From the NCBI RefSeq assembly GCF_018861145.1, contig NZ_JAHKQT010000042.1:1-64000 (forward strand): 64,000 nt of DNA, read 5' to 3'. Positions 4,713 to 63,577 of this stretch are shown here, one piece after another. Source of the stretch: Poseidonibacter lekithochrous (lineage in GTDB: Bacteria; Campylobacterota; Campylobacteria; Campylobacterales; Arcobacteraceae). A program made the position numbers and the translations under genes. Position 1 is the first letter of the stretch, and each line of letters begins with the position of its first letter. The notes under the pieces are model-generated. The model was not told the DNA's origin. It saw nothing but the letters and a program-made list of their open reading frames with translations, and made no database searches.

Positions 4713-5420
4713 TTATTTAATTGCAATAAATGTGGCAAAGTTTACCCATTTAAAAATTGTCTCACAATGTGAGAATCCTGCGTCTAATATCATTTTTTTG
4801 TTTTCTTCTTCTGTATATGGTATTAAAACATTTTCTAAAGCTTCTCTTTTTTGAGAAATCTCAAATTCAGAGTAACCTTGTGTTTTTTTAAATTCATAAT
4901 ATTCATCTATACTTTGTTTGTTTAATTTTGAGTTTGAAGATATTACTTTTTCACTAAAAATAAATATTCCTTCATTTTCTAATGAATCAAAAACCTTTTT
5001 AACTAATTTCTCTCTTTGAAGAGGTCTAATAAATTGTAATGTATAGTTTGAGAGAATTAGTTTTGCATTTGCATAGTTTACATCATGTAAATCTGAATTT
5101 ATTAATTCAATATCTACACCAAATGCTTTAGCTTTTTTTGAAGCTCTATTTAACATAGCAGTAGAATTATCAATACCTATTAATTCTAAGTTATGATCAC
5201 AGTGTTTACTTAACTCTATTAAAGTTGAAGCTGTTGAGCAACCTAAATCATAAACCTTATCATTTTCATTTAAAAAATTACACGCAAAATTTATTGATAA
5301 TCTTTGCATTTCTTTATAAAAAGGAACAGACCTATTTAACATATCATCAAATACTGAAGCTACTTCTTCATCGAATTCGAACTGTTTTATTATTGATTTT
5401 TCAAATACTTTATCTACCAT
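4713..5420 (-). CDS. cmoA: Carboxy-S-adenosyl-L-methionine synthase CmoA
   Basis: A 235-residue class I SAM-fold enzyme. CmoA converts SAM and prephenate into carboxy-SAM, which CmoB uses to make cmo5U at the wobble position of tRNA. Characteristic segments are [15 protein letters not shown] near residue 26, the nucleotide-binding motif [11 protein letters not shown] near residue 58, and [17 protein letters not shown] near residue 120. The last stretch separates CmoA from generic methyltransferases. The length is typical for the family, and no cmoB is in the window. The gene is leftward and flanked by bcp and ribF. Confidence 0.93.
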
Positions 5421-5463
5421 AGTATTATTTTATCTAAATGCTTATTAATAAGTATTTATAGAT

Positions 5464-6315
5464 TTATTTTTTGTTTATAAAATATTCTTTTGTTTCTTCA
5501 ATATCATTTAAAATCTGCATCTTTAATTTTTCAAAACTTTCAAATTTTTTATTATCTCTCAACTTTTTGCAAAACTTAATTTCTATTTCATAATCATCGT
5601 TGATAATATCTTCATCTAAAATATGTGTTTCTATAGCATATGAACCATCTGTAGTAACTCTATGTCCTAAGAATGTAATTGAGTTATATTCAATTTCATT
5701 TAGTATTGTTTTTGTGATATAAACTCCAACTTGAGGTAATAAAAAATCTTCAACTTTTAAATTTATTGTTGGAACAAAACTCTTAGATCCTAAGCCTTGA
5801 CCTTTAATTTGAGTTCCATAGATTTTATACTCTTTATTTAAAAGTTTGTTTGCTGTTTTTAAATCTCCATTTGTTATATATTCTCTAATAGTTCTTGAAT
5901 GAACGGATATATTATCTATTTGAAACTCATCAACTACTATAACTTCTCCATCAAAAATATCTTTTAATTGTTCAATACAATAGCCTCTATTTTTTCCAAA
6001 GCAAAAATCAAAACCTACTACTATTTTTTTTAATTTTGGGTATTCTTGTTTTAAAAGTTCAATAAATTTATTACCTTCAAGATGTTTGATTTCATCTAAA
6101 ACATAATAGTATATTGGATATTTTGAATATTCTTGTCTATATTTTTTTGGAGTTAGTGTTGCGTATCCTGATTCGATTGATAAAATAGCACCATTTTCAT
6201 CTAATCTTTTAAATAATTCTTGATGAGCTGCATGCATTCCATCAAAACCTCCAATTGCTAAAGATGTTATTGTATTTTTATTTATTAAAGTAGAAAAGTT
6301 CTTCTTCATTTCCAT
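5464..6315 (-). CDS. ribF: Bifunctional riboflavin kinase / FAD synthetase
   Basis: A 283-residue enzyme that phosphorylates riboflavin to FMN and adenylates FMN to FAD. The N-terminal FAD-synthetase part carries a nucleotidyltransferase-like segment (AIGGFDGMHAAHQELF near residues 21-36) and VVGFDFCFGKNRG near 98-110. The flavokinase part begins with the family-typical GQGLGSKSFVPTINL near residue 173. It is shorter than the approximately 310 residues of enterobacterial RibF, as usual in Campylobacterota. The start at 6315 lies inside the tlyA coding region (38-base overlap) and is supported by an AAGGA sequence at good spacing, implying translational coupling with tlyA. Confidence 0.92.
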   Translation of the reverse strand: MEMKKNFSTLINKNTITSLAIGGFDGMHAAHQELFKRLDENGAILSIESGYATLTPKKYRQEYSKYPIYYYVLDEIKHLEGNKFIELLKQEYPKLKKIVVGFDFCFGKNRGYCIEQLKDIFDGEVIVVDEFQIDNISVHSRTIREYITNGDLKTANKLLNKEYKIYGTQIKGQGLGSKSFVPTINLKVEDFLLPQVGVYITKTILNEIEYNSITFLGHRVTTDGSYAIETHILDEDIINDDYEIEIKFCKKLRDNKKFESFEKLKMQILNDIEETKEYFINKK

Positions 6316-6997
6316 CTTTTCCTTGTAGTTTACTCAATGAAGAGTATTTTAATTTCCAGTTTAATTGTTCTGTATAATCTATAAATTTTTCTCTAGCTTT
6401 TTCTATTGCTTTTTTATCTTTTACAACACCTTTTTTATCTCTTTTTACATTTGTTCCCACTTCGAATTGGGGTTTAAAAAGAATAATAATATTTTTTGAC
6501 GTTAATCTATTTATATCTTCAATAATATATAAAATTGAAATAAATGAAACATCACAAGTTACAACTTCAAATATTTCTTCACTTTCAAAATCTCTTATAT
6601 CTGTATTTTCAAAAAAAGAAATTCTACTTTCATTTTTGATTTTCTCATGTAGTTGATTTGAACCTACATCAACACATGTTACTTTATTCGCTTCATTTAG
6701 TAGTAAAATTTGTGTAAAGCCACCAGTACTACTTCCAATATCTAATGTATTTTTATTTGTAATTGAAAAGTTTTCTAACTCTTTTAATTCTTCTAGAAAG
6801 TATTTTAGTTTATATGCTGCACGGCTTACAAAAAAGTCGTCTTCAAGTATTTTAATTTGTGATGTTTCATCAACATCAAAAGAGCTTTTTTTTACTATTT
6901 TCCCGTCAACTTCAATCTTGCCTGCTTTTATTAACTCAGCTGCTTTGTTTCTACTTTGGATATCATGATTTATTGTTATATATTGGTCTAATCTCAT
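6278..6997 (-). CDS. tlyA: TlyA-family rRNA 2'-O-methyltransferase / hemolysin-like protein
   Basis: A 239-residue protein with an N-terminal S4 RNA-binding domain (MRLDQYITINHDIQSRNKAAELIKAGKIEVDG in the first 35 residues) followed by an FtsJ/RrmJ-type methyltransferase domain (NTLDIGSSTGGFTQILL, then TCVDVGSNQLH, then LFKPQFEVG). TlyA enzymes 2'-O-methylate 16S and/or 23S rRNA and influence capreomycin susceptibility. The haemolysin name is historical. Its 3' end overlaps ribF, an arrangement common in this phylum. It is divergent from yigZ across a short promoter region at 6998-7071. Confidence 0.92.
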   Translation of the reverse strand: MRLDQYITINHDIQSRNKAAELIKAGKIEVDGKIVKKSSFDVDETSQIKILEDDFFVSRAAYKLKYFLEELKELENFSITNKNTLDIGSSTGGFTQILLLNEANKVTCVDVGSNQLHEKIKNESRISFFENTDIRDFESEEIFEVVTCDVSFISILYIIEDINRLTSKNIIILFKPQFEVGTNVKRDKKGVVKDKKAIEKAREKFIDYTEQLNWKLKYSSLSKLQGKDGNEEELFYFNK

Positions 6998-7071
6998 TTT
7001 TGCATTATAGTTAAATTTTTATCAAGACTACTTTATATATAATTTTATTAGACTACTTATTGGGAAATATA

Positions 7072-7641
7072 TTGAAATACATTCAAAATGAATTTGAAAA
7101 TACTTATGAAGAAAAAAAATCTAAATTTATTGCATTTCTTATGCCTTATAATAAATTTGATGAAGTTATGCAAAATTTAAAAGATAAACACCCAAAAGCA
7201 AGACACTTTGTTTATGCTTATAGATACTTAAATGAATTTGATCAAATAGTGGAAAACTGTAGTGATGATGGAGAACCAAGAGGGACTTCTGGAAAACCCT
7301 CTTTAGCTGTTTTATCAGGAGCAGAGATTGTTAATACTGCAGTTATAATTGTACGATATTTTGGTGGAGTAAAATTAGGAACAGGTGGCTTGGTTCGTGC
7401 TTATTCTTCAAGTGTAAATGAAGTTATTAATATAAGTGAATTTTACGAATATAAAAAACTTATAGAAAAAGAACTCTTCTGTGAATATAGTGAGCTTTCA
7501 AAGCTAGAATATTTATTAAAAGAAGAAAAAATAAATATAAGGTCAAAAGATTTTTCTACAAATATTACTTTAACTATAGAATTGACATCAGAAGAATGGG
7601 AAGAACTTTTAAGAAAACTTCCAATTAACATAAAAACTTAA
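7072..7641 (+). CDS. yigZ: YigZ / IMPACT family protein
   Basis: About 189 residues of the YigZ/IMPACT (UPF0029) family. The signature block is DDGEPRGTSGKPSLAVLSG followed by VIIVRYFGGVKLGTGGLVRAYSSSV around residues 62-110. A small C-terminal ferredoxin-like domain follows. The eukaryotic homologue modulates GCN2; the bacterial role is poorly defined but RNA/ribosome-linked functions have been proposed. The TTG at 7072 was preferred because GGGA lies about six bases upstream and the protein then begins MKYIQNEFENTYEEKKSKF, as in homologues. A TTG twelve bases upstream (7060) is an alternative with a poorer ribosome-binding site. Confidence 0.9.
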   Translation: MKYIQNEFENTYEEKKSKFIAFLMPYNKFDEVMQNLKDKHPKARHFVYAYRYLNEFDQIVENCSDDGEPRGTSGKPSLAVLSGAEIVNTAVIIVRYFGGVKLGTGGLVRAYSSSVNEVINISEFYEYKKLIEKELFCEYSELSKLEYLLKEEKINIRSKDFSTNITLTIELTSEEWEELLRKLPINIKT

Positions 7642-7699
7642 ATTATTATAATTACAATTTGGTTACATTACTAATAGTATATCTTTATTGATATTTAAA

Positions 7700-7705
7700 T
7701 ATAAT
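7700..7705 (+). promoter_or_regulatory. Candidate -10 element of the type II secretion operon
   Basis: A TATAAT hexamer lies 22 bases before the first start codon of the secretion operon, preceded by a T-rich stretch as is usual in Campylobacterota promoters that lack a clear -35 box. A second TATAAT at 7647-7652, just after the yigZ stop, is an alternative. No other promoter-like gap occurs within the operon until its end at 18132. Confidence 0.45.
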
Positions 7706-7727
7706 AACAAAAAATAAAGGTACAAAC

Positions 7728-8102
7728 TTGAAAAAAGCATTCTCTTTAATGGAATTAATGGTAGTAATTATAATTTTAGGATTACTTGCAGCATTTGTAT
7801 TACCAAATCTTACTGGAAAAAGTGAAGAAGCAAAAGATAAAATTGTATGTATTCAAATGAAGAGTATTGCTCAAACATTAAAAATGTTTAAACTTGATAC
7901 TTCATCTTATCCTCAAACTGAAGAGGGCTTAGATATGTTAGTTGAAAAGAAATATTTTGAAGATGGAAAACTGCCAAAAGATGCTTGGGGAAATAAGTTT
8001 ATTTATATTCAAAATGAAGATAGTTTTGATTTAGTTTCAATGGGAAGTGACAAAAAAGAGAGTACTAAAGATGATATTTATTACTCAAAGTGTAATAAAT
8101 AA
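7728..8102 (+). CDS. gspG: Type II secretion major pseudopilin GspG
   Basis: A 124-residue pseudopilin with the class III signal KKA/FSLMELMVVIIILGLL, glutamate at mature position +5, and a C-terminal GspG domain (YPQTEEGLDML, then PKDAWGNKFIYI, then a D/S-rich calcium-loop-like segment SMGSDKKESTKDD). GspG subunits polymerise into the periplasmic pseudopilus. The residue before the cleavage site is Ala instead of the usual Gly. The start is a TTG with AAAGG upstream. It is the first gene of a rightward operon continuing to 18132. It could alternatively serve a Campylobacter Cts-type DNA-uptake system, but the full gene set favours protein secretion. Confidence 0.9.
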   Translation: MKKAFSLMELMVVIIILGLLAAFVLPNLTGKSEEAKDKIVCIQMKSIAQTLKMFKLDTSSYPQTEEGLDMLVEKKYFEDGKLPKDAWGNKFIYIQNEDSFDLVSMGSDKKESTKDDIYYSKCNK

Positions 8103-8104
8103 AT

Positions 8105-8647
8105 ATGAGTTTAAAAAGAGTAAAGAAAGCTTTTACTCTACTTGAACTTATAATTGTAATCATTTTAATATCGCTGTCTTATTATTTGGTTTTTTCAAAT
8201 TCGAATTTTAAAATTAATGATGAAAAAAATAGTGTATCTTTGACAAGTATTAAGAAATATCTAATAGAAAATTTTGAATTTGAAAATGAAATATCACTCG
8301 TTTGTATAAATGAAAACTTAGTTTGTTATATTAAAATTGACGAAAATATCAATGAAGAAATAAAAATTGAAAACTTATTTGAAAATAAACCTGATATTTA
8401 TAAATATCAAAAAGAAGAGCAGATAATTGATTATGAGTCAATTGATATAGATAATATAAGTCAAGATGTGATTTTTGAATTAAAAGTAAATAGTGATTAT
8501 AAAACAAATGAACTAATTGTTGATACTTTAAATGATAAAGTTTACTTATTTAATTCAATTTTTGATGAAGCAAAAACATATTCTTCGCTTCAAGAAGTTT
8601 TTGAAACTTTTAATACTAATCAAATAGAGGTTCAAGATGCTTTTTAA
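8105..8647 (+). CDS. Minor pseudopilin (GspH-like position)
   Basis: A 180-residue protein with a type IV prepilin-like N-terminus: the KKA/FTLLELIIVIILISL signal and helix, with glutamate at +5. The remaining approximately 150 residues are acidic and show no specific domain. By position after GspG it would be a minor pseudopilin such as GspH, capping or initiating the pseudopilus, but sequence alone does not separate H, I or J here. As in GspG, the residue before the cleavage site is Ala. Its 3' end overlaps the start of gspF by 11 bases. Confidence 0.75.
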   Translation: MSLKRVKKAFTLLELIIVIILISLSYYLVFSNSNFKINDEKNSVSLTSIKKYLIENFEFENEISLVCINENLVCYIKIDENINEEIKIENLFENKPDIYKYQKEEQIIDYESIDIDNISQDVIFELKVNSDYKTNELIVDTLNDKVYLFNSIFDEAKTYSSLQEVFETFNTNQIEVQDAF

Positions 8648-9851
8648 ATATCAAGGTTTTGATTCAAATGGAAAAAAACTAAAATCAAAAATAGAAGCAT
8701 TAAATTTAAATGAAGCAAAATCAAAATTAAAAGCAAAAAATATACTTTATACATCTTTAGAGGAAGAAGACTTTAACTTTTCAAAAATCTCTTTTAAAAG
8801 AAAAAGAACTTTAAGTCTATCTTCTTTATCTTATTTAAGTAGAGATTTAAGTATTTATTTAAACTCTGGAATCTCTCTAATCTCTGCAATAAATCTACTA
8901 AAACAAAGGTATAAAGATGATAAAGTTTTAAATTCTTTTTTTGAATCAATATCAACTTATTTAGATGAAGGTAAGAACTTCTATGTTGCACTTGATTCTC
9001 AAACTGTTGTTAATCTTCCGGAATTTTATAAGCAATCTATTAAAATCAGTGAAAATGGTGGTTTATTAGAATCTGTATTATTAGAATTATCAACATTTTT
9101 AAAAGAGCAAGATAGAATAAAGAAACAAGTAACTTCTGCTTTAGCATATCCTTTATTTATCCTTTTCATATCATTTTTTATGGTCGGCTTTATGTTAAGT
9201 TTTATTGTTCCTAAAATCACTGATATCTTTACTCAAATTGACCAAGAATTACCTGATAGCACAAAAATAGTAATTGCACTTGGGGATTTCTTTTCAAATA
9301 ATTATATGTATATTATAGCAGTTGTTTTTACTCTAATACTTACTTTCTTATTTTTAATGAAAAGATCAAAAACTTTTAAATATGCTTTTGATAAGTTTGT
9401 ATTAAAACTGCCATTTTTTTCAACTATGATTGAACAAGGTGAACTTGCAAGATTTTCATATATGAACTCAATTTTAATTAAATCTGGTGTTCCAATAGTA
9501 CAAGGAATAAACCTAAGTGCTAATATTTTAAAAAATTCTGTTATAAAAAGAGTATTTGTAGAAGCCTCTAAAAGTGTAGTTGAGGGTAAAAAACTTTCTG
9601 TTTTATTAAGTACAAATAAAATATATAAAATTGATGAGGCTTTTATTCACTCTATTGCAATTGGTGAAGATACTAGTAAATTATCTGAAATACTTAGTAA
9701 TTTAGCAACTTTATATAATGAAGCGAATAAAGATAAAACAGATATCTTTCTAGCTTTACTTGAACCTATTTTTATGTTGTTTGTTGGTGTTACTATTGGA
9801 TTTATTGTAATCTCAATGTTGCTACCAATATTCTCAATGAATTTAAGTTAG
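8637..9851 (+). CDS. gspF: Type II secretion inner-membrane platform protein GspF
   Basis: A 404-residue GspF/PilC-family polytopic protein with the two repeated cytoplasmic four-helix domains and three membrane helices. Recognisable segments include FKYQGFDSNGKKLKSKIEA at the N-terminus, LSSLSYLSRDLSIYLNSGIS near residue 64, ELARFSYMNSILIKSGVPI near residue 265, and the C-terminal LLEPIFMLFVGVTIGFIVISMLLPIF. It anchors the assembly ATPase GspE at the inner membrane. The length is normal. The start overlaps the preceding pseudopilin gene, consistent with coupled translation. Confidence 0.93.
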   Translation: MLFKYQGFDSNGKKLKSKIEALNLNEAKSKLKAKNILYTSLEEEDFNFSKISFKRKRTLSLSSLSYLSRDLSIYLNSGISLISAINLLKQRYKDDKVLNSFFESISTYLDEGKNFYVALDSQTVVNLPEFYKQSIKISENGGLLESVLLELSTFLKEQDRIKKQVTSALAYPLFILFISFFMVGFMLSFIVPKITDIFTQIDQELPDSTKIVIALGDFFSNNYMYIIAVVFTLILTFLFLMKRSKTFKYAFDKFVLKLPFFSTMIEQGELARFSYMNSILIKSGVPIVQGINLSANILKNSVIKRVFVEASKSVVEGKKLSVLLSTNKIYKIDEAFIHSIAIGEDTSKLSEILSNLATLYNEANKDKTDIFLALLEPIFMLFVGVTIGFIVISMLLPIFSMNLS

Positions 9852-9870
9852 ACAAAGTGTATAAAGTAAT

Positions 9871-10545
9871 ATGAAAAAATCTATTGTTTTATTAATCTCT
9901 CTTTTTTTTATTTCTGCTTTATCTATTTTGATTATAAAAAACTTAGAAGATACTAACTTATTTTTGGAAGAAAAAAACCATAAAATAAATAAGACTCAAA
10001 TACTTACATCTTTTAATAATATTCAAATTGAAATTAGTAAGATATTTAAAAATAATAAGAATAATATTACTAATATTATTGCTGAGTTAAACTCTGAATA
10101 TATACCTATTGGTATAAAAGATATTTTAATTTCATTTACAATTACAGAATATGATAAAGTTAATATAAACTTATTATCAAATAAAGATAGCAAAGATTAT
10201 GCAGAGCTTACAACGCTTTTTTCTGATTATGAAATTAGTAATTTTGATGGCTTTAAATATGTATATAAAGAAATAGAAGATGAGTATAAAAATACAAAAG
10301 ATGAGAATGAAGGTTTTGTAAAAAATAATAAGCAAATTGATGATATAATTAATATAATTATAGAAAAAACTTATAATAATGAAATTTTAAATATAAAAAA
10401 TAAACTAGGTTTTATCAAGAAAAATGAGAATGAAAAACTATATGAACTTTTTGTAAAAGTCAAGTATTTAAATGATTTTGCAAAAGCATATTATATTCTT
10501 AATGAAGAAGGGGTTGTAAAGTATTTTGAGTCTAGTTTCAAGTAA
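9871..10545 (+). CDS. Candidate GspK-like minor pseudopilin, divergent
   Basis: A 224-residue protein with a single N-terminal hydrophobic helix (SIVLLISLFFISALSILIIKN) directly after MKK, followed by an Asn/Lys/Glu-rich region of mixed predicted helix and strand. GspK proteins usually lack the +5 glutamate and begin with a hydrophobic VL/IL stretch, which fits here, and the gene lies between F and L in a secretion operon. No GspK-specific insert was recognised and the protein is shorter than typical GspK (approximately 320 residues). It could also be an unrelated accessory membrane protein. The gene overlaps the GspL-like gene by 20 bases. Confidence 0.5.
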   Translation: MKKSIVLLISLFFISALSILIIKNLEDTNLFLEEKNHKINKTQILTSFNNIQIEISKIFKNNKNNITNIIAELNSEYIPIGIKDILISFTITEYDKVNINLLSNKDSKDYAELTTLFSDYEISNFDGFKYVYKEIEDEYKNTKDENEGFVKNNKQIDDIINIIIEKTYNNEILNIKNKLGFIKKNENEKLYELFVKVKYLNDFAKAYYILNEEGVVKYFESSFK

Positions 10546-11440
10546 CAATAAAAAAGTTTTTTTATCTACAAATACAAAAATAGATGATAGTGAGAAAGTA
10601 AATATTATCTTATCGCCTGAATTATATTGGGTTAGAATATTTGATATTCCTGTTAGAAATATCACACATGCTAGACATGTTTTACCTACATTATTTGAAG
10701 ATATTTTGACAAATGTATCTGAACTTTCATTTCAAGTAGTAAAACTTGAAGAAAATAAATATTTATGTTTTGCATATATCAATAAAACTATTTATGAAGC
10801 AATTAAAAAATCAGGGATATCTTTATCCTTAGTAGATAGTATTTATTTTGCACAAAATGAGTGTAAAAAGTTTAAAGAGTTTACTTTTGAAAATAAAAGT
10901 TTTATTTATTCTCCTGATAATATTTTAATAAAAGTCCCAAGTAATATACTTTCAAATCCTATAGATTTAAATGAAAACATAAATAAAGTAGAACTATCTC
11001 CACACAAAGTAGATATCAAGTTATATAACAATGTATTATCATCAAAACAAATCTATTCGATTTTAGCTATTATATTATGTATTTGTATTATCAATATTTA
11101 TAAATTATTCGATTATAAAACACAAATTTCTAAGATTGATAATCAAATTGAAATAGAAAAAAAACAAAGTAATCTTCCTTCTAGTATGCTACAAACAAAT
11201 TCAATATTGAAAAAATACAAATCTATAGTAAATAAAGAGATAAAAAAAAGAGAATTCTTAGAATATTTATTATCAAATAAATTATTTAAGATAAATAAAA
11301 TAAATTTAAATAAAGATATAGTCTTTATCACTTTTAATAATACTGATAAAACAAGACTAGAAAAATATATATCAAAAAGATATAAAATTATTTCAAGTAA
11401 AGTAAAAGCTCTAGATATTCAAATGCAGGTAAAACTATGA
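10526..11440 (+). CDS. GspL-like inner-membrane assembly protein
   Basis: A 304-residue protein. Residues 1-170 look like the actin-fold cytoplasmic domain of GspL/PilM relatives (NIILSPELYWVRIFDIPV near residue 25, and RHVLPTLFEDILTN near residue 50). One transmembrane segment follows (SILAIILCICIINIYKLF near residues 178-195), then a short coiled-coil/ferredoxin-like periplasmic tail. In type II systems GspL connects the GspE ATPase to GspM. Sequence similarity to model GspL proteins is weak, so the call rests on architecture and gene order (before the M-like gene). The start overlaps the preceding gene and the stop overlaps the next start by four bases. Confidence 0.65.
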   Translation: MSLVSSNNKKVFLSTNTKIDDSEKVNIILSPELYWVRIFDIPVRNITHARHVLPTLFEDILTNVSELSFQVVKLEENKYLCFAYINKTIYEAIKKSGISLSLVDSIYFAQNECKKFKEFTFENKSFIYSPDNILIKVPSNILSNPIDLNENINKVELSPHKVDIKLYNNVLSSKQIYSILAIILCICIINIYKLFDYKTQISKIDNQIEIEKKQSNLPSSMLQTNSILKKYKSIVNKEIKKREFLEYLLSNKLFKINKINLNKDIVFITFNNTDKTRLEKYISKRYKIISSKVKALDIQMQVKL

Positions 11441-11832
11441 ATAGAATAAATCCTTTATATATAATTGCATTAACATTAACTGTTCTTTTTATATCTTTGT
11501 ATTCTTTAAATAAAAAGAAAATGACTTTTAATGAAAAAAAAGATGAGTTAAGTTTAATAAAGAAAAAAGCAAAAGATTATAAGTCGTATAAAGAATCATG
11601 GATTAATGAAGCTTTTGTAGATAAGACACTAAATGATATATTAAAAAGTCGTCAATTTTCAAATCAAAAAGTGCTAAGAGCAAAAACTAAAAATAGTGTA
11701 AAAGTTAAAATCCAATCAAATGATCAAAATATTTTAAATGCATTTTTAAATAAGATTTTAAACAAAAAACTAATTATTAGAAAACTGGAAATTGAAAAAA
11801 GTTTTATTAATATAGAAATAGGAATTAACTAA
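11437..11832 (+). CDS. GspM-like membrane assembly protein
   Basis: A 131-residue protein with one N-terminal membrane helix (PLYIIALTLTVLFISLYSL), a short Lys/Glu-rich coiled-coil segment, and a small C-terminal domain of about 70 residues that could form the ferredoxin-like fold of GspM. It overlaps the GspL-like gene (ATGA) and abuts the next gene (stop and start share a base). Position and topology support a GspM role, stabilising GspL and GspE at the inner membrane. Primary sequence gives no independent signature. Confidence 0.55.
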   Translation: MNRINPLYIIALTLTVLFISLYSLNKKKMTFNEKKDELSLIKKKAKDYKSYKESWINEAFVDKTLNDILKSRQFSNQKVLRAKTKNSVKVKIQSNDQNILNAFLNKILNKKLIIRKLEIEKSFINIEIGIN

Positions 11833-12359
11833 TGAAAAAGATATTTAAGATATTCATATATTTTTTAATTTTTATATTATTTACTTTGATTCTTTTACCA
11901 AAAAATTCTATTTATAATTTATTAGAACAAGAACTATCAAAACAAAATATTATAATCTCAGATGAAAAAAGAGATGAAAAACTTTTAAATTTAAAAGTTA
12001 GTGATGCAAAAGTTTATTATCAAGGTATAGAAGGTGCAAATATAAATAGTGCAAATTTCTTTTCTGTACTAGTGTATTCAAAAATAGAAGTAGATGATGT
12101 TAAGTTGTTGCAGAGTTTATCATCATTTTTTCCTCCATATATAAAAAATATTGTTCTTAAACATTCAGTATTAGATTATAGAAATATTGATATTTATTCT
12201 CAAGGAGATTTTGGAGTATTAAGAGGAAATATCGATTTGATAAAAAGAACTTTGATACTTAATCTTGAAGCTTCAAATAAAATGAAAAAGCAGTATGAAA
12301 GAGTATTAAAACAAATGAAACTAGAAGAGGGGAAGTATATTTATGAATATAGATTTTAA
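11832..12359 (+). CDS. GspN-like single-pass membrane protein
   Basis: A 175-residue protein with an N-terminal membrane anchor (IFKIFIYFLIFILFTLILLP) and a periplasmic region predicted to be mostly beta-strand (LNLKVSDAKVYYQGIEGANI, then FGVLRGNIDLIKRTLILNLEAS). This pattern, with a repeated beta-sheet domain after an anchor, resembles GspN or AsmA-type proteins, and the position between M-like and C-like genes agrees. GspN is optional in type II systems. Its end overlaps the gspC-like start by 17 bases. Similarity is structural impression only. Confidence 0.5.
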   Translation: MKKIFKIFIYFLIFILFTLILLPKNSIYNLLEQELSKQNIIISDEKRDEKLLNLKVSDAKVYYQGIEGANINSANFFSVLVYSKIEVDDVKLLQSLSSFFPPYIKNIVLKHSVLDYRNIDIYSQGDFGVLRGNIDLIKRTLILNLEASNKMKKQYERVLKQMKLEEGKYIYEYRF

Positions 12360-13161
12360 TAAATTAATTCAGAAGTTAATTCCTTATTCTTTTCTTTTGT
12401 TATTAGCATATTTAATTTCAACGATACTTTTTGTTTACTTGCCTAAAGATGGAGTGGATTTTATAGATAATTCAACTCAAAATTTAGAGTATAAAAAGTA
12501 TGATGGTTTTTATTCTAATGCAAAGCCAATTATAAAAAAGAAGGAAATTAAAAAAGTTGTAAAGCAAGAAACACTTTCTTCATATACTTTAAAAGCAATT
12601 TACTCAACTACTTCAAATAGTGGTTGGGTTACTATTGAAAATAAGAAAAATAGTAAAAGTTATATTCTTTCACAATTTGAAGAGCTTGATGGTTATATAC
12701 TTACAAAACTTTATAAAAACTATGTTGTTTTAGAAAAACAAGCAAAAGAATATCGTTTAGAGATATCACAAACAAATAAAAAAGTTGCATATAATGTAAC
12801 AAATAATAATGACAATATTACAGAAAATATTGTAGTTAATGGGAATAGTGTAGTAATTAAAAGAGATTTTTTAAACTCATATGTTAAAGATATTGATAAA
12901 GTTTGGAATAACATATCTATAAATGAGATTAGAACAAATGGTAACTTAGATGGATTTAAAGTTATGAGAGTTGCTAAAAAATCTGTTTTTGGTAAACTTG
13001 GCTTAAAAAAGAATGATATTATTAAATCAATAAACAATAATATTTTAACATCATATGCTGATGCATTTAAAGTTTATAATAATATCGGTGATACTAAATA
13101 TTTAAATTTAGAGATTTTAAGAAATAATGAAATATTGGAGTTAAATTATGAGATTGATTAA
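12343..13161 (+). CDS. gspC: GspC-like protein with PDZ domain
   Basis: A 272-residue bitopic protein. It has a membrane helix near residues 14-32 (FLLLLAYLISTILFVYLP), a homology-region-like domain around residues 75-140 (LKAIYSTTSNSGWVTIENKK, then FEELDGYILTKLYKNYVVLEK), and a C-terminal PDZ domain near residues 195-270 (GFKVMRVAKKSVFGKLGLKK, then DIIKSINN). This is the GspC layout: the HR domain contacts the secretin N0 domain and the PDZ domain has been linked to substrate selection. The stop overlaps the gspD start by 14 bases, consistent with a C-D pair. Confidence 0.8.
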   Translation: MNIDFNKLIQKLIPYSFLLLLAYLISTILFVYLPKDGVDFIDNSTQNLEYKKYDGFYSNAKPIIKKKEIKKVVKQETLSSYTLKAIYSTTSNSGWVTIENKKNSKSYILSQFEELDGYILTKLYKNYVVLEKQAKEYRLEISQTNKKVAYNVTNNNDNITENIVVNGNSVVIKRDFLNSYVKDIDKVWNNISINEIRTNGNLDGFKVMRVAKKSVFGKLGLKKNDIIKSINNNILTSYADAFKVYNNIGDTKYLNLEILRNNEILELNYEID

Positions 13162-15106
13162 AGTTGTACTTTTAGTTTTTTTACTAAATTTTGTATTGCA
13201 AGCAGATGAAAAAATAAATATAAATTTTAAAGATTTAAAGATAATGGATTTAGTGAAAATCACATCAAAAATCATTGACAAGAATATTTTAGTTACGCAA
13301 GAAGTAAAAGGAAATGTTGATTTTATATCTACTAAACCTTTAGAAAAAAAAGAACTAGTAAAAATTTTAATATACTCATTAGAGGCAAAAGGTTTTACAC
13401 TTATTCAAGGTAATGATATTATGAGAATAGTTAAATTAAGTGAGAGTGCAAAAAATAATGTACCGCTAATAAATGGAAATCAAGAAAAACTTTATTACCA
13501 AATGGTAACAGAAATATTTCCAGTTCATAATGCAAATGCAGATTATATAGCTTCAAAAATTAGACATCTTATTTCAAAAACTGCAAAGCTTGTAACAAAC
13601 AAAGAATCAAATACTTTAGTTATTACAGATTTTAAAGACAATATTGAAACTATTAAAAAAGTTGTAAGTGTTATGACTTATGGTGCTAAGAAAAGTATTG
13701 AAATTATTGAACTTAATAATATAAAAGCATCAGATGCAAAGAAAAATTTAGATGCTGTTGCCAAGTCTATTTTCAATGAAAAAATTGAGACAGAAAAAGT
13801 TTCTATTATTGCAAATGCGGATAATAACTCTTTAGTAATTGTAGGAAGAAATCAAAATATTAAGTATTTAAAAAAGTATGTAAAAAATATTGATAGTAAT
13901 GATTCTTTAGTTAAAAGAATTGTTGAGGTACATTCTTTAAAAAATGTTGAAGCTAGTAATGTAATTAAAATCATTGATGGAATTATTGGAAAGAAAAAAT
14001 ATTTAGACCCAAATTCAAAACCTTTGTCTTCTGTTGATGAAGAATCAAATTCTATCGTTTTAATGGGACCTTCTGATGAACTAGAGTATATAAAAGCAAT
14101 ATTAGTAGAATTAGATAAAGAAAAAGCACAAGTTTATGTGCAAGCAAAAATAATTGAAGTTAATGATGATTTAGTTGATGAAGTAGGAATAAAATATGGA
14201 ATCTTTGGAGGAACAACAGGAAGTAAAGGTATTGGAACTTTCTCTTCTTCTTTAAATGGTGGAAGTGGAGTATCTTTTTCTATTGCGGATATTGGTTTAA
14301 GTATTCCTGATTTAACTTCTGGATTAGCCTTAGGTGCATCACTTAGTTTACTTAACCAAGATGGCGCTTTAGATATTGTTTCAGAACCTTCAATTTTAGC
14401 TATCAATAATAAAGAAAGTTCAATCTATGTTGGAGAAACTATTTCAGTAAAAACATCTTCAAGTGTTTCAGATGGTGGAACGGAAAGTGAAAATTTTAAA
14501 AGAGAAGATGTTGGGTTGACATTAACTGTTAAGCCAAGAATTTCAAATGATAATAAAGTTACGCTAGAAATCCATACAGTTTTAGAAGATGTTAAGAGTA
14601 CAGATACTACAAGTGGAAATGCAGACACAACTAAAAAAGAAGTGAAGACAACCGCAATTGTTAATAATGGAGAATCTGTTATTCTTGGTGGATTAATTGA
14701 AGATAAAGAAGAATCAACTATAAATAAAATCCCTGTTTTAGGTGATGTACCTTTATTAGGTAGATTATTTACTCATGATAAAACTGATATAAGAAAACGA
14801 AGTTTAGTAATTATAGTAACACCTTATATTATTCCAAAATCAAAAGATTTAACATATGTAAGAAATCAATTAGCACAACTTAAAATTCTTGAAGATAAAT
14901 ATTTAAGAGATTCTTTGATTAGATTAAAACAAAAACAGATAAGTGAAGTAAGTGAAGAAAAAATTTATAAAGACAAACTTCAATCTTTGCAAAAAGAATA
15001 TGAACTAATAACAGCTAAAAAAGAAGCATCGGTAAACTCTATTTCAGAAGATTTTGATAATAGGACTGAGCACCAAAAAAGAGTAGCTGAGATATTTGGA
15101 AACTAG
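13148..15106 (+). CDS. gspD: Type II secretion outer-membrane secretin GspD
   Basis: A 652-residue secretin with a signal peptide (IKVVLLVFLLNFVLQA). It has an N0 domain (INFKDLKIMDLVKITSKIID), then N1-N3 repeats (for example IFPVHNANADYIASKIRHLI, IELNNIKASDAKKNL and VEVHSLKNVEASNVIKIIDG). The secretin core follows from about residue 330, with AQVYVQAKIIEVNDD, LDIVSEPSILAINNKE and VILGGLIEDKEE, then IPVLGDVPLLGRLF. A C-terminal extension of about 85 residues is charged and coiled-coil-like. No lipobox is seen. No GspS pilotin was recognised nearby. The gene sits between gspC and gspE. Confidence 0.95.
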   Translation: MRLIKVVLLVFLLNFVLQADEKININFKDLKIMDLVKITSKIIDKNILVTQEVKGNVDFISTKPLEKKELVKILIYSLEAKGFTLIQGNDIMRIVKLSESAKNNVPLINGNQEKLYYQMVTEIFPVHNANADYIASKIRHLISKTAKLVTNKESNTLVITDFKDNIETIKKVVSVMTYGAKKSIEIIELNNIKASDAKKNLDAVAKSIFNEKIETEKVSIIANADNNSLVIVGRNQNIKYLKKYVKNIDSNDSLVKRIVEVHSLKNVEASNVIKIIDGIIGKKKYLDPNSKPLSSVDEESNSIVLMGPSDELEYIKAILVELDKEKAQVYVQAKIIEVNDDLVDEVGIKYGIFGGTTGSKGIGTFSSSLNGGSGVSFSIADIGLSIPDLTSGLALGASLSLLNQDGALDIVSEPSILAINNKESSIYVGETISVKTSSSVSDGGTESENFKREDVGLTLTVKPRISNDNKVTLEIHTVLEDVKSTDTTSGNADTTKKEVKTTAIVNNGESVILGGLIEDKEESTINKIPVLGDVPLLGRLFTHDKTDIRKRSLVIIVTPYIIPKSKDLTYVRNQLAQLKILEDKYLRDSLIRLKQKQISEVSEEKIYKDKLQSLQKEYELITAKKEASVNSISEDFDNRTEHQKRVAEIFGN

Positions 15107-16609
15107 ATGAATATTCAAGAATTACACAATATAAATTTATTACCTTATGAAGTTGAAAACTATTCAACAGCTCTAAAAAGTTATGTTCTTTTTTCACAAA
15201 TTGATGATAAAGTTGTTATTGCTATATCTAAAGATTATATGAGTGTTTCTTTTGATTATCTTTCTAAATTTGAATATAAATATGAAGTAATATTTTTAGA
15301 TGAGATATCTTATGAAAGACTTTATAATAAATTTTTGGAAATAAAAACAGATAAAGAAATGAGTGATATTCAACAAGAGCAAGAAGATGCAACAGTTGAA
15401 GATGAAGATTTTTCTGTTAGTGAGTTTTTAAAAGTTGGAAGTGATATTTTAACTTCTGAAGAATCCGCTCCAATTATCAAGTTTGTAAACTCTCTTTTTT
15501 ATCAAGCAATAAAGAAAAAAGCTTCAGATATTCATATTGAAATGCATGAATTTAAAGCTGAAGTAAGATATCGAGTAGATGGTGTTTTAGTTAAACATAT
15601 TGAATTAGATAAAAATATTATGTCATTAGTAATATCAAGAATAAAAGTAATCTCAAACTTAGATATAAGTGAAAAAAGAATTCCACAAGATGGACGTACT
15701 GCTATTAAAATTGCCGGTAAAACTTTAGATATTAGGGTGTCAATTCTTCCTACTTTTTATGGTGAAAGAGTTGTTATGAGAATCTTAATGCAAAGTGAAG
15801 ATATTTTGTCCGTTAAAGAGTTAGGCTTTCCTTCTTATATTACAGATGAATTAGAAAAAGTATTAAGAAATTCATATGGAATGGTATTAGTAACAGGTCC
15901 TACAGGAAGTGGGAAGTCTACTACACTTCATTCTTTGTTACATCAAGTAGTAAGTGAAGAAAAAAATATAATCACGGTAGAAGACCCAGTTGAATATAAA
16001 TCAAATGAGTTTTCACAAATTCAAGTTAATGCGAAAGTAGGGCTTACTTTTGCTTCTGGATTAAGATCTATTTTAAGACAAGACCCAGATATTATAATGC
16101 TTGGTGAAATTAGAGACAAAGAAACAGCTTCGATTGCAGTGCAATCTGCATTAACAGGACACTTACTTTTTTCTACCCTTCATACAAATAGAGCTCCTGC
16201 TGCAATTACTAGACTTATTGATATGGGAGTTGAAAAGTTTTTAATTTCTTCTTCCTTGCTTGCTGTATTAGCACAAAGGCTTGTTCGTAAACTTTGTAGT
16301 TCTTGTAAGTGCGAAGATGATTCCAATGCCTCTCATCAACTTTTTAAACTTTCACCTAATACAAAACTATTCAAACCAAAAGGTTGTAAAGAGTGTAATT
16401 TTACAGGATATATAGGACGTATAGCTATTGGTGAATTATTTATAATTGATGATGAGATTAAAGAGTATTTAAAAACTGATGTTGATGATAATACTTTAAT
16501 GAAATTAGCACATGAAAGTGGAATGATTTCTTTAGATGTACAATTAAAACAAATGCTTGAAAATGGAGATACTTCAGTTTCAGAGGCTGTTAGAATTGGT
16601 TTAAAATAA
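15107..16609 (+). CDS. gspE: Type II secretion ATPase GspE
   Basis: A 500-residue AAA+-like secretion ATPase. It has an N-terminal N1E-type domain, then Walker A GPTGSGKSTT beginning near residue 264, an Asp box (ITVEDPVEY), Walker B (DIIMLGEIRDKETA) and a His box (GHLLFSTLHTNRAP). The metal-binding module is present as CSSCK and, about 30 residues later, GCKECNFTGYIGR, giving two CxxC pairs. It hydrolyses ATP at the cytoplasmic face to drive pseudopilus assembly via GspF and GspL. The ATG follows immediately after the gspD stop (TAG then ATG). Confidence 0.95.
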   Translation: MNIQELHNINLLPYEVENYSTALKSYVLFSQIDDKVVIAISKDYMSVSFDYLSKFEYKYEVIFLDEISYERLYNKFLEIKTDKEMSDIQQEQEDATVEDEDFSVSEFLKVGSDILTSEESAPIIKFVNSLFYQAIKKKASDIHIEMHEFKAEVRYRVDGVLVKHIELDKNIMSLVISRIKVISNLDISEKRIPQDGRTAIKIAGKTLDIRVSILPTFYGERVVMRILMQSEDILSVKELGFPSYITDELEKVLRNSYGMVLVTGPTGSGKSTTLHSLLHQVVSEEKNIITVEDPVEYKSNEFSQIQVNAKVGLTFASGLRSILRQDPDIIMLGEIRDKETASIAVQSALTGHLLFSTLHTNRAPAAITRLIDMGVEKFLISSSLLAVLAQRLVRKLCSSCKCEDDSNASHQLFKLSPNTKLFKPKGCKECNFTGYIGRIAIGELFIIDDEIKEYLKTDVDDNTLMKLAHESGMISLDVQLKQMLENGDTSVSEAVRIGLK

Positions 16610-16610
16610 T

Positions 16611-17006
16611 ATGAAAAAATCTTTTTCTTTAATGGAAGTAATTATTGCTGTTGTAATGCTTAGTGTTGTTATGCTCACATTATTACAAATAAAAAGTGAT
16701 AGTATCTTTCTTGTAAGCAAAAGTAATGAACAAAACAAGCTACGTGATTATATTCAATTAGTTGTTAATATAGATAATGAAAATAAGAAAAATGAAAATA
16801 TTTTTTTAGATAAAAGTTATAGATTTAAAAATGATGATATTAGAAAAGAATTTAAAGATATAAAAATCAAAGTAAAAAGTGAACAAATAAATTCCAAAGA
16901 TTATAGTTTTAATAGTGTAAATTTTAAAATTATAACAAATGAAAACTCATATTCAATTGGCGATGATATAAAAAAGAATATTTATACTTTTAAGATTGAG
17001 TTATAA
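16611..17006 (+). CDS. Minor pseudopilin (GspI-like)
   Basis: A 131-residue pseudopilin with the N-terminal signal KKS/FSLMEVIIAVVMLSVVMLTLL and glutamate at +5. The residue before the predicted cleavage site is Ser. The short globular part (about 95 residues) is typical of GspI size, and the MEVIIA sequence is common among GspI proteins. Together with the next gene it would form the I-J tip complex. It starts just after gspE and overlaps the next gene by 11 bases. Confidence 0.72.
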   Translation: MKKSFSLMEVIIAVVMLSVVMLTLLQIKSDSIFLVSKSNEQNKLRDYIQLVVNIDNENKKNENIFLDKSYRFKNDDIRKEFKDIKIKVKSEQINSKDYSFNSVNFKIITNENSYSIGDDIKKNIYTFKIEL

Positions 17007-17538
17007 AATGAAGAAGGCTTTTACTTTATTAGAAGTTCTTATTTCTATTACAATTTTTATGATTTTATTGATTTTTTTATATAAAACTTTAGACCAGACA
17101 AAACATTCAAATAAACAATTTATTAATCATTCTCAAACTTTAAAATATCAAAATGAATTAAATGACATTTTTATCGAAGATATTTTAGAATCAATAAGTA
17201 AAATAGAGATAAAGATAGATAATGATGAGAATTCAATATTAAGATTTAGAAGCTCAAATAGCTATCACGATTCTTTTTTTAATAATATTACGTATATGAT
17301 TTCTTCAAATAATAAGCTTCTTAGAATTGAAAGCAAAGATAAGTTTAATTTTGGTGAAACACCTTTAAGCTTTTTTGATAATGCTTTTATTGATATTCTA
17401 TTAGAAGATATAGAATTTTTTGAAGTAAAAGAAAATATTATTAATACTAATAAAAACTATGTTTTTATAATAAAACAAAAAGATAAAGAAAGAATCGTTT
17501 TTAATACATATCAATTTAATAATATAAAAGAGGAATAA
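16996..17538 (+). CDS. Minor pseudopilin (GspJ-like)
   Basis: A 180-residue pseudopilin with signal KKA/FTLLEVLISITIFMILLIFL and glutamate at +5. The globular part is larger than in the preceding gene. The order I then J after E, and the length near 180-200 residues, fit GspJ. The first ATG (16996) encodes MSYKMKK; an internal ATG (M5, at 17008) directly before KKAFTLLE is also plausible and gives a more typical short leader. Residue -1 of the cleavage site is Ala. The stop is immediately followed by the ATG of the SH3-domain gene. Confidence 0.72.
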   Translation: MSYKMKKAFTLLEVLISITIFMILLIFLYKTLDQTKHSNKQFINHSQTLKYQNELNDIFIEDILESISKIEIKIDNDENSILRFRSSNSYHDSFFNNITYMISSNNKLLRIESKDKFNFGETPLSFFDNAFIDILLEDIEFFEVKENIINTNKNYVFIIKQKDKERIVFNTYQFNNIKEE

Positions 17539-18132
17539 ATGAAATTACTAATGTGTTTTTTAATAAGTATAAATATTTTAATTGCAAATCAATCAAATGT
17601 TGTTAAAACTTCAGAATTAGAGCTTTTTTTATTTAAAGTAGGTTTTGAATCTTTATTAACTGATGTTGATATTACAAAAAACAAGTCTAATTTAAATGAA
17701 AGTGAATTAAAGAAACTAAACTCTAAAATTGAAATAATTATGGATAAATTATATAAAGATGAAAGAGTTATAACAAATGATTCTAAAAACATTGACCTTA
17801 AATATAGTACTGATGAAGGTATGAAAGAAGAGATTAGTACTCTTAAGAATGAAATTAATTTATTAAAGACTCAAATAAATAAACTATTATTAGATAAAAA
17901 ATTAGAAGTAAATACAGAAATAAAGAAAGTAAAAGATGTTGCTCTAAATGAAAAAAGATATAAGATAAAAGAAGATGCTACAAATATACGTGAAAAGCCT
18001 TTTCCTACTGCAAAAATTGTAGATGTCTTGGATGAAGGAACTTTAGTTTATATTGAGTATTGTAATAAGTTTGCTTGGTGTAAGTTTAAAGGTGAAGAAA
18101 AGTTTGTATCAAGGTTCTTACTTAAAAAGTAA
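17539..18132 (+). CDS. Exported coiled-coil protein with C-terminal SH3-like domain
   Basis: A 197-residue protein beginning with a signal peptide (MKLLMCFLISINILIANQ), followed by a helical, probably coiled-coil region near residues 95-120 (EEISTLKNEINLLKTQINKL) and a bacterial SH3 domain from about residue 147 (ATNIREKPFPTAKIVDVLDE, then GTLVYIEYCNKFAWCKF). Bacterial SH3 domains often bind peptidoglycan or cell-wall proteins. It directly abuts the GspJ-like gene and is the last gene of the secretion operon, so it may be a periplasmic accessory anchoring the machine to the wall. That role is inference; no GspA or GspB was seen. Confidence 0.75.
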   Translation: MKLLMCFLISINILIANQSNVVKTSELELFLFKVGFESLLTDVDITKNKSNLNESELKKLNSKIEIIMDKLYKDERVITNDSKNIDLKYSTDEGMKEEISTLKNEINLLKTQINKLLLDKKLEVNTEIKKVKDVALNEKRYKIKEDATNIREKPFPTAKIVDVLDEGTLVYIEYCNKFAWCKFKGEEKFVSRFLLKK

Positions 18133-18133
18133 A

Positions 18134-18748
18134 TTATCCTTCTACATACTTAATAAGTGCATCATTTAAATTTAATGATGCAATAGTATTTTTTGGATTT
18201 TTGTCATTTAATACTTTATTACAATCTGAGCATAAAATAATTATATTTTCAAAATTATATCCACCACCTTGTGCAATATCTTTTGCAAATGTAGTAAATG
18301 TATCATCTAGTTTTATTTCCATTCCACATCTATTACATTTATTTTCATCTCTTATCCAAGCTAACTCTCGTCTTTCTATCCAGTCATTAGGCGTTTTTGG
18401 ATTTGAGAAAGACTTCTCTTCATAAGTACTCCAAAGCTTTTCTCTTGAAATTCCTTTTTGAGTATTTTTTTCATATTCATGATAAAAAAATTGACTTATA
18501 ATATCTTCAACTATTAAAGTTTCTCTAATTCGAATATCTTTTTCATCTTTAGTTTTTTCTATTATTGAGTAATCTAAAGAGATTTTAGGATGATTTCTTT
18601 GCATATGTTGTTTTAAATCTTTTATAAAAAACTCTAAAGATCCAGTTTTATAAGCAAAAGAAAAAACTTTCTGCCTATAAATATATAGTGGTATTAAACA
18701 AGCAATTATTAAACTAGAATAAATTATAAAAGTAGAATCTAATATCAC
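18134..18748 (-). CDS. Membrane-anchored HNH endonuclease-like protein
   Basis: A 204-residue protein with one N-terminal membrane helix (FIIYSSLIIACLIPLYIY) and a C-terminal HNH/zinc-finger nuclease domain: RDENKCNRCGMEIKLDD, then NFENIIILCSDCNKVLNDK, giving two CxxC pairs and an Asn in the expected HNH core. The classical first His of the H-N-H triad is not obvious, so catalytic competence is uncertain. It starts at a GTG with AAGGA upstream. It is convergent with the secretion operon (stops one base apart) and probably co-transcribed with the upstream SdhB/SdhE-like gene. Confidence 0.7.
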   Translation of the reverse strand: MILDSTFIIYSSLIIACLIPLYIYRQKVFSFAYKTGSLEFFIKDLKQHMQRNHPKISLDYSIIEKTKDEKDIRIRETLIVEDIISQFFYHEYEKNTQKGISREKLWSTYEEKSFSNPKTPNDWIERRELAWIRDENKCNRCGMEIKLDDTFTTFAKDIAQGGGYNFENIIILCSDCNKVLNDKNPKNTIASLNLNDALIKYVEG

Positions 18749-62135: not shown

Positions 62136-62152
62136 AAATGATAACCATTATT
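62136..62152. promoter_or_regulatory. Candidate Fur box 1
   Basis: AAATGATAACCATTATT resembles the Fur consensus (GATAATGATAATCATTATC family), about 82 bases upstream of the imelysin start. Together with a second site at 62206 it suggests iron repression. Confidence 0.55.
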
Positions 62153-62205
62153 AATATTAAGTGGCGCTTAAGAATAAAATTACTAGAATGTCACAAATCA
62201 TTTAT

Positions 62206-62219
62206 GATAATAATTATTA
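62206..62219. promoter_or_regulatory. Candidate Fur box 2
   Basis: GATAATAATTATTA contains the perfect 12-bp palindrome TAATAATTATTA (62208-62219), 15 bases before the ATG at 62234. This position would block translation initiation or transcript elongation, as expected for Fur control. Confidence 0.5.
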
Positions 62220-62233
62220 GTATAGGAACTAAA

Positions 62234-63577
62234 ATGTTAAATTTAAAATTAATTACAGTATCAGTTGGTTTAGCTGCTGCTTTATCTTTCTCGGGTTGTG
62301 TTACAAGCTCTGAAAATATGGAAACTACAAAAAAAGTTGAAATGACACAAATATCTCCAATTTTAACTTCATATGCAAAGATTGCAGAAGCAAATTATTC
62401 TGATGCATTAAACGATGCAAAGAAATTACAAATAGCGATTGCAGACTTTACTTCAAATCCTACAGAAAAAACTTTTGCAAATGCAAAAGTTGCTTGGTTA
62501 AATTCAAGAGAATCTTATGGTCAAACTGAGATCTTTAGATTATCAAATGGTCCTATTGATGCTGAAGAAGGTTGGGTTGCTGATACTTATGGTGCACTTG
62601 AAGGACAACTTAACGCTTGGCCTTTAGATGAAAATATGATTGATTATACTATTGATGCAAATGGTGTAAAAACTTCAGGAAATATTATTGATACTATGGG
62701 TACATTTAATCCAGGTGGTGAAGATGCAAGTTCAGTAAATGTTTCAAATATTACAGTTGATGCAATTACAGCATTAAATGAAAATGGTGGCGATGCAAAT
62801 GTAGCAACTGGGTATCATGCTATTGAGTTCTTACTATGGGGACAAGATCAAGACTACTCTAACTTTGTAAAAGATTCAATTACAAATGGTGCAACAACTG
62901 CAGGTCAAAGACCATTAAGTGATTATATCAGCGATAAAAATGCACCTAGAAGAATTGCATTTTTAAAAGCAGCTTCATCAAAAATTGTAAGTGATTTAGA
63001 AACTATTACAAATGCATGGACTAATGATGGATTATATAAAAATGCATTCTTAGGAAAATTAAGTGGTTCAGATGCTTCAAAAAATATTAGTTCAGCTGAT
63101 GCTTTAAAACAAGTTATTGCTGGAATGGGTGTATTTATGAAATCAGAACTTGCAAATGAAAGAATTGCAGTTGCAGTTTTAACTCCAAGTGAAGAAGATG
63201 AGCATTCTTGTTTTTCAGATAATACACACAGGGACATTACTACAAATTATTTAGGTTTTAGAAATGTATTAACTTCGACTTATAATAATGAATCATATGG
63301 TAAGTCGATGCTAGATGCTGTATCTGTAGAAGATAAGAAAAGAATCATTTCTTTAATGAAATCAATTGAAACAAAAATTTCAAGTATTAATAAAGTTGCA
63401 ATGACAAGTGCACACTTTGATTACCAAATTCAACCTGATAATCCTCAATCAAAAGTTATTGTAAAACTTAAAAACGAAATGAGAAAATTAGGTGATGAGA
63501 TGGTTAACGTTGCAAATGCAAATGGAATTTCTTTAACACAAGAAGATGTAACAGACGCTGATGAAACAAAAATCTAA
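62234..63577 (+). CDS. Imelysin-family (M75) iron-regulated lipoprotein
   Basis: A 447-residue exported protein. Start at 62234 (ATG after TAGGAAC), giving a lipoprotein signal (LITVSVGLAAALSFSGC; Cys22). A 32-codon in-frame extension upstream has no signal and crosses the Fur-like sites, so it was rejected. Imelysin features seen are the N-terminal repeat helices (SYAKIAEANYSDALNDAKKL) and the GxHxxE motif in ATGYHAIEFLLWGQDQDYSN. Imelysins are linked to iron uptake and are typically Fur-regulated; proteolytic activity is doubtful. The next gene, a di-haem oxidoreductase, overlaps its end by 17 bases, an arrangement common for this pair. Confidence 0.9.
   Translation: MLNLKLITVSVGLAAALSFSGCVTSSENMETTKKVEMTQISPILTSYAKIAEANYSDALNDAKKLQIAIADFTSNPTEKTFANAKVAWLNSRESYGQTEIFRLSNGPIDAEEGWVADTYGALEGQLNAWPLDENMIDYTIDANGVKTSGNIIDTMGTFNPGGEDASSVNVSNITVDAITALNENGGDANVATGYHAIEFLLWGQDQDYSNFVKDSITNGATTAGQRPLSDYISDKNAPRRIAFLKAASSKIVSDLETITNAWTNDGLYKNAFLGKLSGSDASKNISSADALKQVIAGMGVFMKSELANERIAVAVLTPSEEDEHSCFSDNTHRDITTNYLGFRNVLTSTYNNESYGKSMLDAVSVEDKKRIISLMKSIETKISSINKVAMTSAHFDYQIQPDNPQSKVIVKLKNEMRKLGDEMVNVANANGISLTQEDVTDADETKI

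Follow-up and report, generated by a model that had tools for sequence, protein, structure and literature searches.

A strongly diverged type II secretion operon in Poseidonibacter lekithochrous and a GspD secretin that may also serve DNA uptake

The window analyzed here (the whole stretch of 64,000 nucleotides from Poseidonibacter lekithochrous, contig NZ_JAHKQT010000042.1) harbors 13 same-strand ORFs between 7728 and 18132 on the plus strand. The ORF map of the 64-kb window shows them to be tightly packed: adjacent genes share 1 to 20 bases, abut, or lie at most 19 bases apart, and TTG is the predicted start codon in several of them. The gene order is G-H-F-K-L-M-N-C-D-E-I-J, with an SH3-type gene in last place, and the operon is closed downstream by a convergent HNH-type gene with its end at 18134. 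The genes and their borders are as follows.

7060..7641, plus strand: flanking YigZ/IMPACT-type gene (named by sequence appearance), bordering the secretin site on the left; the same neighbor is found beside the orphan secretin in genomes without a type II secretion system (T2SS)
7728..8102, plus strand: GspG, major pseudopilin; TIGR01710 103.6 bits, above the 88.85 cut-off; PF08334 3e-20; profile best against K-12 GspG, 1e-35
8105..8647, plus strand: GspH-like minor pseudopilin; prepilin N-methyl motif; hhalign best against E. coli K-12 GspH, 66%
8637..9851, plus strand: GspF, inner-membrane platform; PF00482 5.8e-42, two copies; top NCBIfam model TIGR02120 GspF, 5e-81, under the strict cut-off
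9871..10545, plus strand: GspK, shortened, 224 aa; family profile best against K-12 GspK, 7.5e-9; relatives match NF037980
10526..11440, plus strand: GspL with reduced cytoplasmic domain; AlphaFold2 pLDDT 86; predicted fold matches; no Pfam match
11437..11832, plus strand: GspM-like protein (TM helix and predicted ferredoxin-like domain); profile-profile match to the C-terminal half of L
11832..12359, plus strand: probable GspN (TM helix and curved beta-sheet domain); AlphaFold2 pLDDT 93; one relative matches TIGR04411
12343..13161, plus strand: GspC (TM, HR domain, PDZ domain); NF041515 GspC 3e-21 and TIGR01713 1e-15, both under cut-off
13148..15106, plus strand: GspD secretin (N0, three Secretin_N repeats, secretin core); TIGR02517 365 bits, above the 351 cut-off; Pfam domains
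15107..16609, plus strand: GspE ATPase (Walker A GPTGSGKS, CxxC...CxxC); PF00437 7e-132; top NCBIfam model TIGR02533 GspE, 5e-166, under cut-off
16611..17006, plus strand: GspI-like (I/J-like) minor pseudopilin; profile against K-12 GspJ 1e-6 and GspI 7e-6; position and size fit GspI
16996..17538, plus strand: GspJ minor pseudopilin; hhalign against K-12 GspJ 94%; N_methyl 2.6e-7
17539..18132, plus strand: exported coiled-coil and SH3-like protein, family-specific accessory; weak SH3_4 match; same place in 9 of 40 related loci
18134..18748, minus strand: flanking HNH-domain gene; PF01844 5e-5; right border of the secretin site, same neighbor in T2SS-less genomes

The initial annotation had described thirteen close-packed genes running in one direction, nearly all overlapping or abutting, and the ORF coordinates as well as the conservation of the cluster confirm this layout. 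In the gene-order comparison it had proposed, 12 of the 13 genes recur as a cluster in 40 loci (20 across the order Campylobacterales and 20 further ones within the family), several of which lack individual detected members or are truncated by contig ends; the operon genes are thus real and not chance ORFs. The K-L-M-N-C-D-E block is kept as the stable part of the Campylobacterales loci examined, and G, the H-like gene, F and the I/J-like genes vary in place or strand among genera. The thirteenth gene was present in nine of the 40 loci searched, all nine of them within the family.

Two further features of the window lie downstream. Six large sensor histidine kinase-type genes within 30 kb (31343-61693) share a common HQW[RK]QPLS motif, which suggests a local expansion. 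An imelysin-like predicted lipoprotein gene, called by sequence appearance only, is located at 62138-63577.

The central components were assigned with little ambiguity. The earlier calls of G, F, D and E hold, G and D scoring above their NCBIfam cut-offs and E and F having GspE and GspF as top models. For GspE and GspF the Gsp models outscore the NCBIfam PilB, PilC and ComG models, yet stay under their equivalog cut-offs; likewise, the GspD and GspE models score D and E higher than do the PilQ, PilB and ComGA models. A GspC profile built from 21 relatives matches OutC (6hcg, chain 6hcg_e) over 10-267 with 1.4e-14 and also matches the PDZ domains of GspC structures, and the 12343 gene gives 92% against K-12 GspC in hhalign. 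The initial annotation had named ComGA/PilQ-like hits for E and D, together with a 12343 gene devoid of a GspC-type domain, as evidence against its reading; what we find is that the Gsp models win and that the HR and PDZ domains are present. It had left three pseudopilins without individual names. Their class is correct, and they are now specified as H-like (8105), I/J-like (16611) and GspJ (16996). The prepilin peptidase GspO/PilD is encoded outside the operon by a single-copy gene on contig C11, the only one found.

The K, L, M and N genes required a different kind of evidence. In scans of their relatives against Pfam, none matched a T2SS family, and searching PDB sequences with the profiles of K and L yielded nothing useful; NCBIfam recovered K and, weakly, N where Pfam failed. 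By its profile matches, the 9871 gene belongs to the GspK family: seven of 19 relatives match NF037980 T2SS_GspK (best 1.9e-8), a model that the window protein itself does not match. GspK measures 194-238 aa in the sampled family members (292 aa in one divergent genus) and roughly 270-315 aa outside the family; compared with other Campylobacterales, the family members fall short by about 80 residues. The D-x-D...SE segment of the large helical domain of this tip pseudopilin and the following block are missing from the window protein; this segment is shortened in nearly all family members and present in relatives outside the family.

The 10526 gene, according to its AlphaFold2 model, has the GspL fold. 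The model superimposes on the actin-like domain of cyto-EpsL/PulL over residues 6-166 (Z 11.2) and on the ferredoxin-like periplasmic domains of PulM/PulL/EpsL over residues 236-304 (Z 7-8), and the cytoplasmic part comprises some 165 residues as compared to 224-238 in solved homologues. Profile search and hhalign gave no sequence match of the L profile to K-12 GspL, and the identity of L consequently rests on the predicted fold. The M profile, without a direct match to K-12 GspM, aligns with the membrane-anchored C-terminal half of L at near full length (92.5%, E 5e-7); none of the other operon families used as controls reaches 5%. GspL and GspM share a fold, and a match of M to half of L is the relationship expected of a GspM; the 11437 gene thus resembles the membrane-anchored half of L and is GspM-like. 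The 11832 gene is probably GspN, since one relative matches TIGR04411 T2SS_GspN_Lepto (1.5e-4). Fold matches of the N model were middling (JlpA on top with Z 8.3, LptA and LptC at about 5) and are not counted here as evidence of kinship. The earlier suggestion of divergent K, L, M and N members is borne out in this graded way: K by the GspK profile, L by fold, M by its likeness to half of L, and N as probable. The structure prediction proposed along with it yielded a GspL fold for L and no decisive fold match for N.

Our analysis provides strong evidence, and we hold it very likely, that the operon encodes a genuine, strongly diverged T2SS. The G, D, E, F and C models and the evidence for K, L and M support the T2SS-like reading of the initial annotation. 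The component set is complete (C, D, E, F, G, H, I, J, K, L, M and probably N, with the peptidase elsewhere), and the operon represents a divergent form of a familiar type of system. The same component set C-M is found in gammaproteobacterial T2SS (E. coli K-12 gspC-O, Klebsiella Pul, Vibrio Eps); G, F, K, C, D, E and J are homologous to theirs by profile and L shares the GspL fold. In contrast to these systems, the order of genes in the window differs, Pfam does not recognize L, M and N of the window type among the members scanned, GspL has a smaller cytoplasmic domain and GspK is shortened. With the T2SS of other Campylobacterales the operon shares the conserved K-L-M-N-C-D-E block and its gene families, but GspK is shorter in the window's family, part of the family carries the SH3 gene, and the window operon sits at a site that elsewhere holds an orphan secretin.

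The window genome also encodes a second cluster, located on contig C3, with an ATPase of 454 aa, a platform protein of 397 aa and two upstream membrane proteins. The sizes of the ATPase and the platform protein fit those reported for the naturally transformable Aliarcobacter butzleri, whose ctsE, pilG and ctsD homologues measure 453, 396 and 478 aa (PMC8308473). From adjacency and sizes we call the cluster a Cts-like uptake machine. ComEC is present in the genome, and prepilin-type genes also occur outside the operon. In phylogenetic trees T2SS and Cts sequences are separated for both E (support 95/99 and 100/98) and F (100/99 and 100/100), and E and F of the window fall outside the Cts group, which was assigned by adjacency and size and not via C. 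jejuni sequences. The Campylobacter/Aliarcobacter Cts systems have a homologous ATPase, platform and secretin, whereas E and F of the window belong to a separate group. A Cts-type platform match was obtained in 100 of 104 family genomes; a gspL match was obtained in 38 of the 104, among them five of the ten from the window's genus, the window genome included.

These data bear directly on the scenario in which the whole operon is a DNA-uptake system of Cts/Com type and not a protein exporter. Campylobacter Cts proteins are T2SS-like and members of the family are naturally transformable (PMC8308473), which gives the scenario its appeal. A separate Cts-like E/F cluster is nevertheless near-universal in the family while the operon is patchy, the trees keep both machines apart, and the operon possesses a GspC with PDZ domain, a GspK and a protein of predicted GspL fold. 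We consider this scenario highly improbable and have dropped it. Given the separate C3 cluster, the distinct trees and the unequal distribution, the T2SS operon would be an accessory protein-secretion machine and C3 the core uptake machine. The initial annotation had regarded secretion versus DNA uptake as unsettled; for the inner-membrane part this is now largely answered, and its doubt persists for GspD, which may serve both.

The reason lies in the genomic site of gspD. Across the family the site reads YigZ-type gene, secretin, HNH gene, 363-aa gene and murA, and the secretin is often a solitary GspD-type gene; in some genomes only part of these neighbors, or none, was seen. Within the window's genus, a solitary full-length gspD lies between the same neighbors in four congeners without gspL and in two congeners that have their T2SS elsewhere. 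Orphan secretins across the family are usually shorter (463-568 aa), a size that includes the 478-aa A. butzleri ctsD homologue (PMC8308473). The short orphans lack the residues corresponding to window GspD from about 104 to 184 (N1) or to 255 (N1 and N2), and retain N0, the last Secretin_N repeat and the secretin core. Of the 66 family genomes without a gspL match, 61 keep a strong match to a GspD-type secretin; gspL was called absent on the basis of a single protein search, and part of the genomes are fragmented or might encode a divergent T2SS. In many T2SS-positive relatives a short secretin at the yigZ site exists alongside the long one of the operon.

None of the models designates the short orphan as a secretin for DNA uptake; near-universal Cts genes, the size of the ctsD homologue and an HR-like domain in a Cts protein (see below) are suggestive of this role. 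In one T2SS-less genome assembled as a single contig (G204) no GspD-type orphan was found and Cts-F is shortened to 324 aa, possibly a joint loss of the uptake system. In the T2SS-positive genome G187 the orphan secretin is disrupted (L218, 3369-4915) while the operon GspD and Cts E/F are intact, which would fit a takeover by GspD, although an assembly error could also explain it.

A secretin tree was calculated from 66 sequences using only columns common to long and short forms; its bootstrap had not fully settled. The orphans form no single group in this tree but interleave with operon GspDs. The short orphans need ten label changes, and well-supported branches force at least seven of them. 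Most of the full-length orphans from the window's genus are nested within operon GspDs. A single clade of all orphans is rejected (p-AU 1.3e-36). The interleaving is what repeated derivation from a T2SS GspD, or gene conversion between two copies, would give.

Solitary secretins could in principle be non-functional leftovers of T2SS loss, as they sit at the operon site, are relatives of GspD and include the disrupted copy of G187. This is very unlikely: almost every orphan examined is an intact ORF, almost all genomes lacking the T2SS have retained one, and the selective retention of one gene of thirteen, combined with the deletion of whole domains, points to a function.

Which secretin serves the Cts-like machine in the window genome itself? 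The operon occupies the site, with gspD in its middle, and hence no orphan copy stands there; neither was one found at the yigZ site of relatives with the operon at that site. A search with PF00263 detected two secretins in the window genome, the operon GspD and one on contig C12. The latter was rejected as the Cts secretin as it lies in an inovirus-like prophage (4942-14001) that carries, besides an integrase, a replication protein and a Zot-like protein, a secretin of its own; these names are partly by sequence appearance. A third cluster of type IV filament-like genes lies on contig C33 (185-14935) and resembles a type IVb pilus set. It includes a short platform-like gene, a divergent ATPase and small membrane proteins, together with two large exported proteins of RCC1-repeat-like appearance and a lipoprotein that is possibly its secretin. 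The candidate secretin of this cluster gives no Pfam match, so that a divergent secretin missed by Pfam and serving Cts in the window genome is possible.

A docking point for GspD on the Cts machine is suggested by the C-terminal stretch of a 227-aa Cts protein, which matches the HR domain of GspC (88%, E 3e-6), whereas no other family reaches 10%. In T2SS this domain contacts the N-terminal periplasmic domains of the secretin (GspC-GspD, PMC3169554), of which the orphans have retained N0. On the simplest reading, a single GspD may accordingly be common to protein secretion and DNA uptake, receiving either the T2SS platform or the Cts platform. In the working model, GspE would power the growth of a GspG pseudopilus on a platform of C, F, L and M, and the pseudopilus would push folded periplasmic proteins out through GspD. 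DNA uptake would be driven by the separate Cts-like motor on the other contig; for secretion GspD would dock with GspC, and for uptake with the HR-like domain of the 227-aa protein. As to the direction of events, we infer from the sequences that upon loss of the T2SS gspD would be kept as uptake pore, and that N1 or N1-N2 would subsequently be lost in many lineages.

The main competitor of this model is an ordinary lineage-specific T2SS with a dedicated GspD, in which the orphans are a separate uptake gene and the Cts machine of the window genome uses an unrecognized secretin or is inactive. The pairs of long operon and short yigZ-site secretins in T2SS-positive relatives make such a division of labor possible, and secretins can escape Pfam, as the C33 candidate illustrates. 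The lack of a separate orphan at the yigZ site of the window genome and of relatives with the operon there speaks against it, as do the failure of the orphans to form a clade of their own and the full-length orphans of the congeners, mostly nested inside operon GspDs. We regard the dedicated-GspD scenario as a serious but doubtful contender. For the shared pore, i.e. a complete T2SS plus a separate Cts-like uptake motor plus a GspD common to both, we estimate a probability of roughly 55%. The fuller version, in which one GspD serves both the T2SS and the Cts motor, the secretin gene passed repeatedly between them and N1 or N1-N2 was often dropped after T2SS loss, we hold to be evenly poised.

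The Thermus secretin PilQ is bifunctional in DNA uptake and pilus extrusion (PMC5745081), and the arrangement proposed here likewise assigns two tasks to one secretin, with the difference that the two users of the pore would be a T2SS and a separate uptake motor. In the open-licence literature we found no report of a T2SS secretin common to DNA uptake in this group. In a survey of type IV filament machines, the secretins of T2SS fell into one clade, from which little transfer of secretins from one system to another was deduced (PMC6668835). Here, within one family, secretins at a putative uptake site repeatedly group with T2SS GspDs. The solitary gspD at the site in relatives without the remaining genes, together with its possible double use, is the part that specialists would not expect.

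Given how divergent L, M and N are, T2SS may be under-reported in Campylobacterales when annotation relies on profiles, and the shortened GspK is relevant to the working of the pseudopilus tip. If the pore is shared, the family would show how a large machine can go while its pore stays, and that N1 and N2 are dispensable for DNA uptake yet kept for protein secretion.
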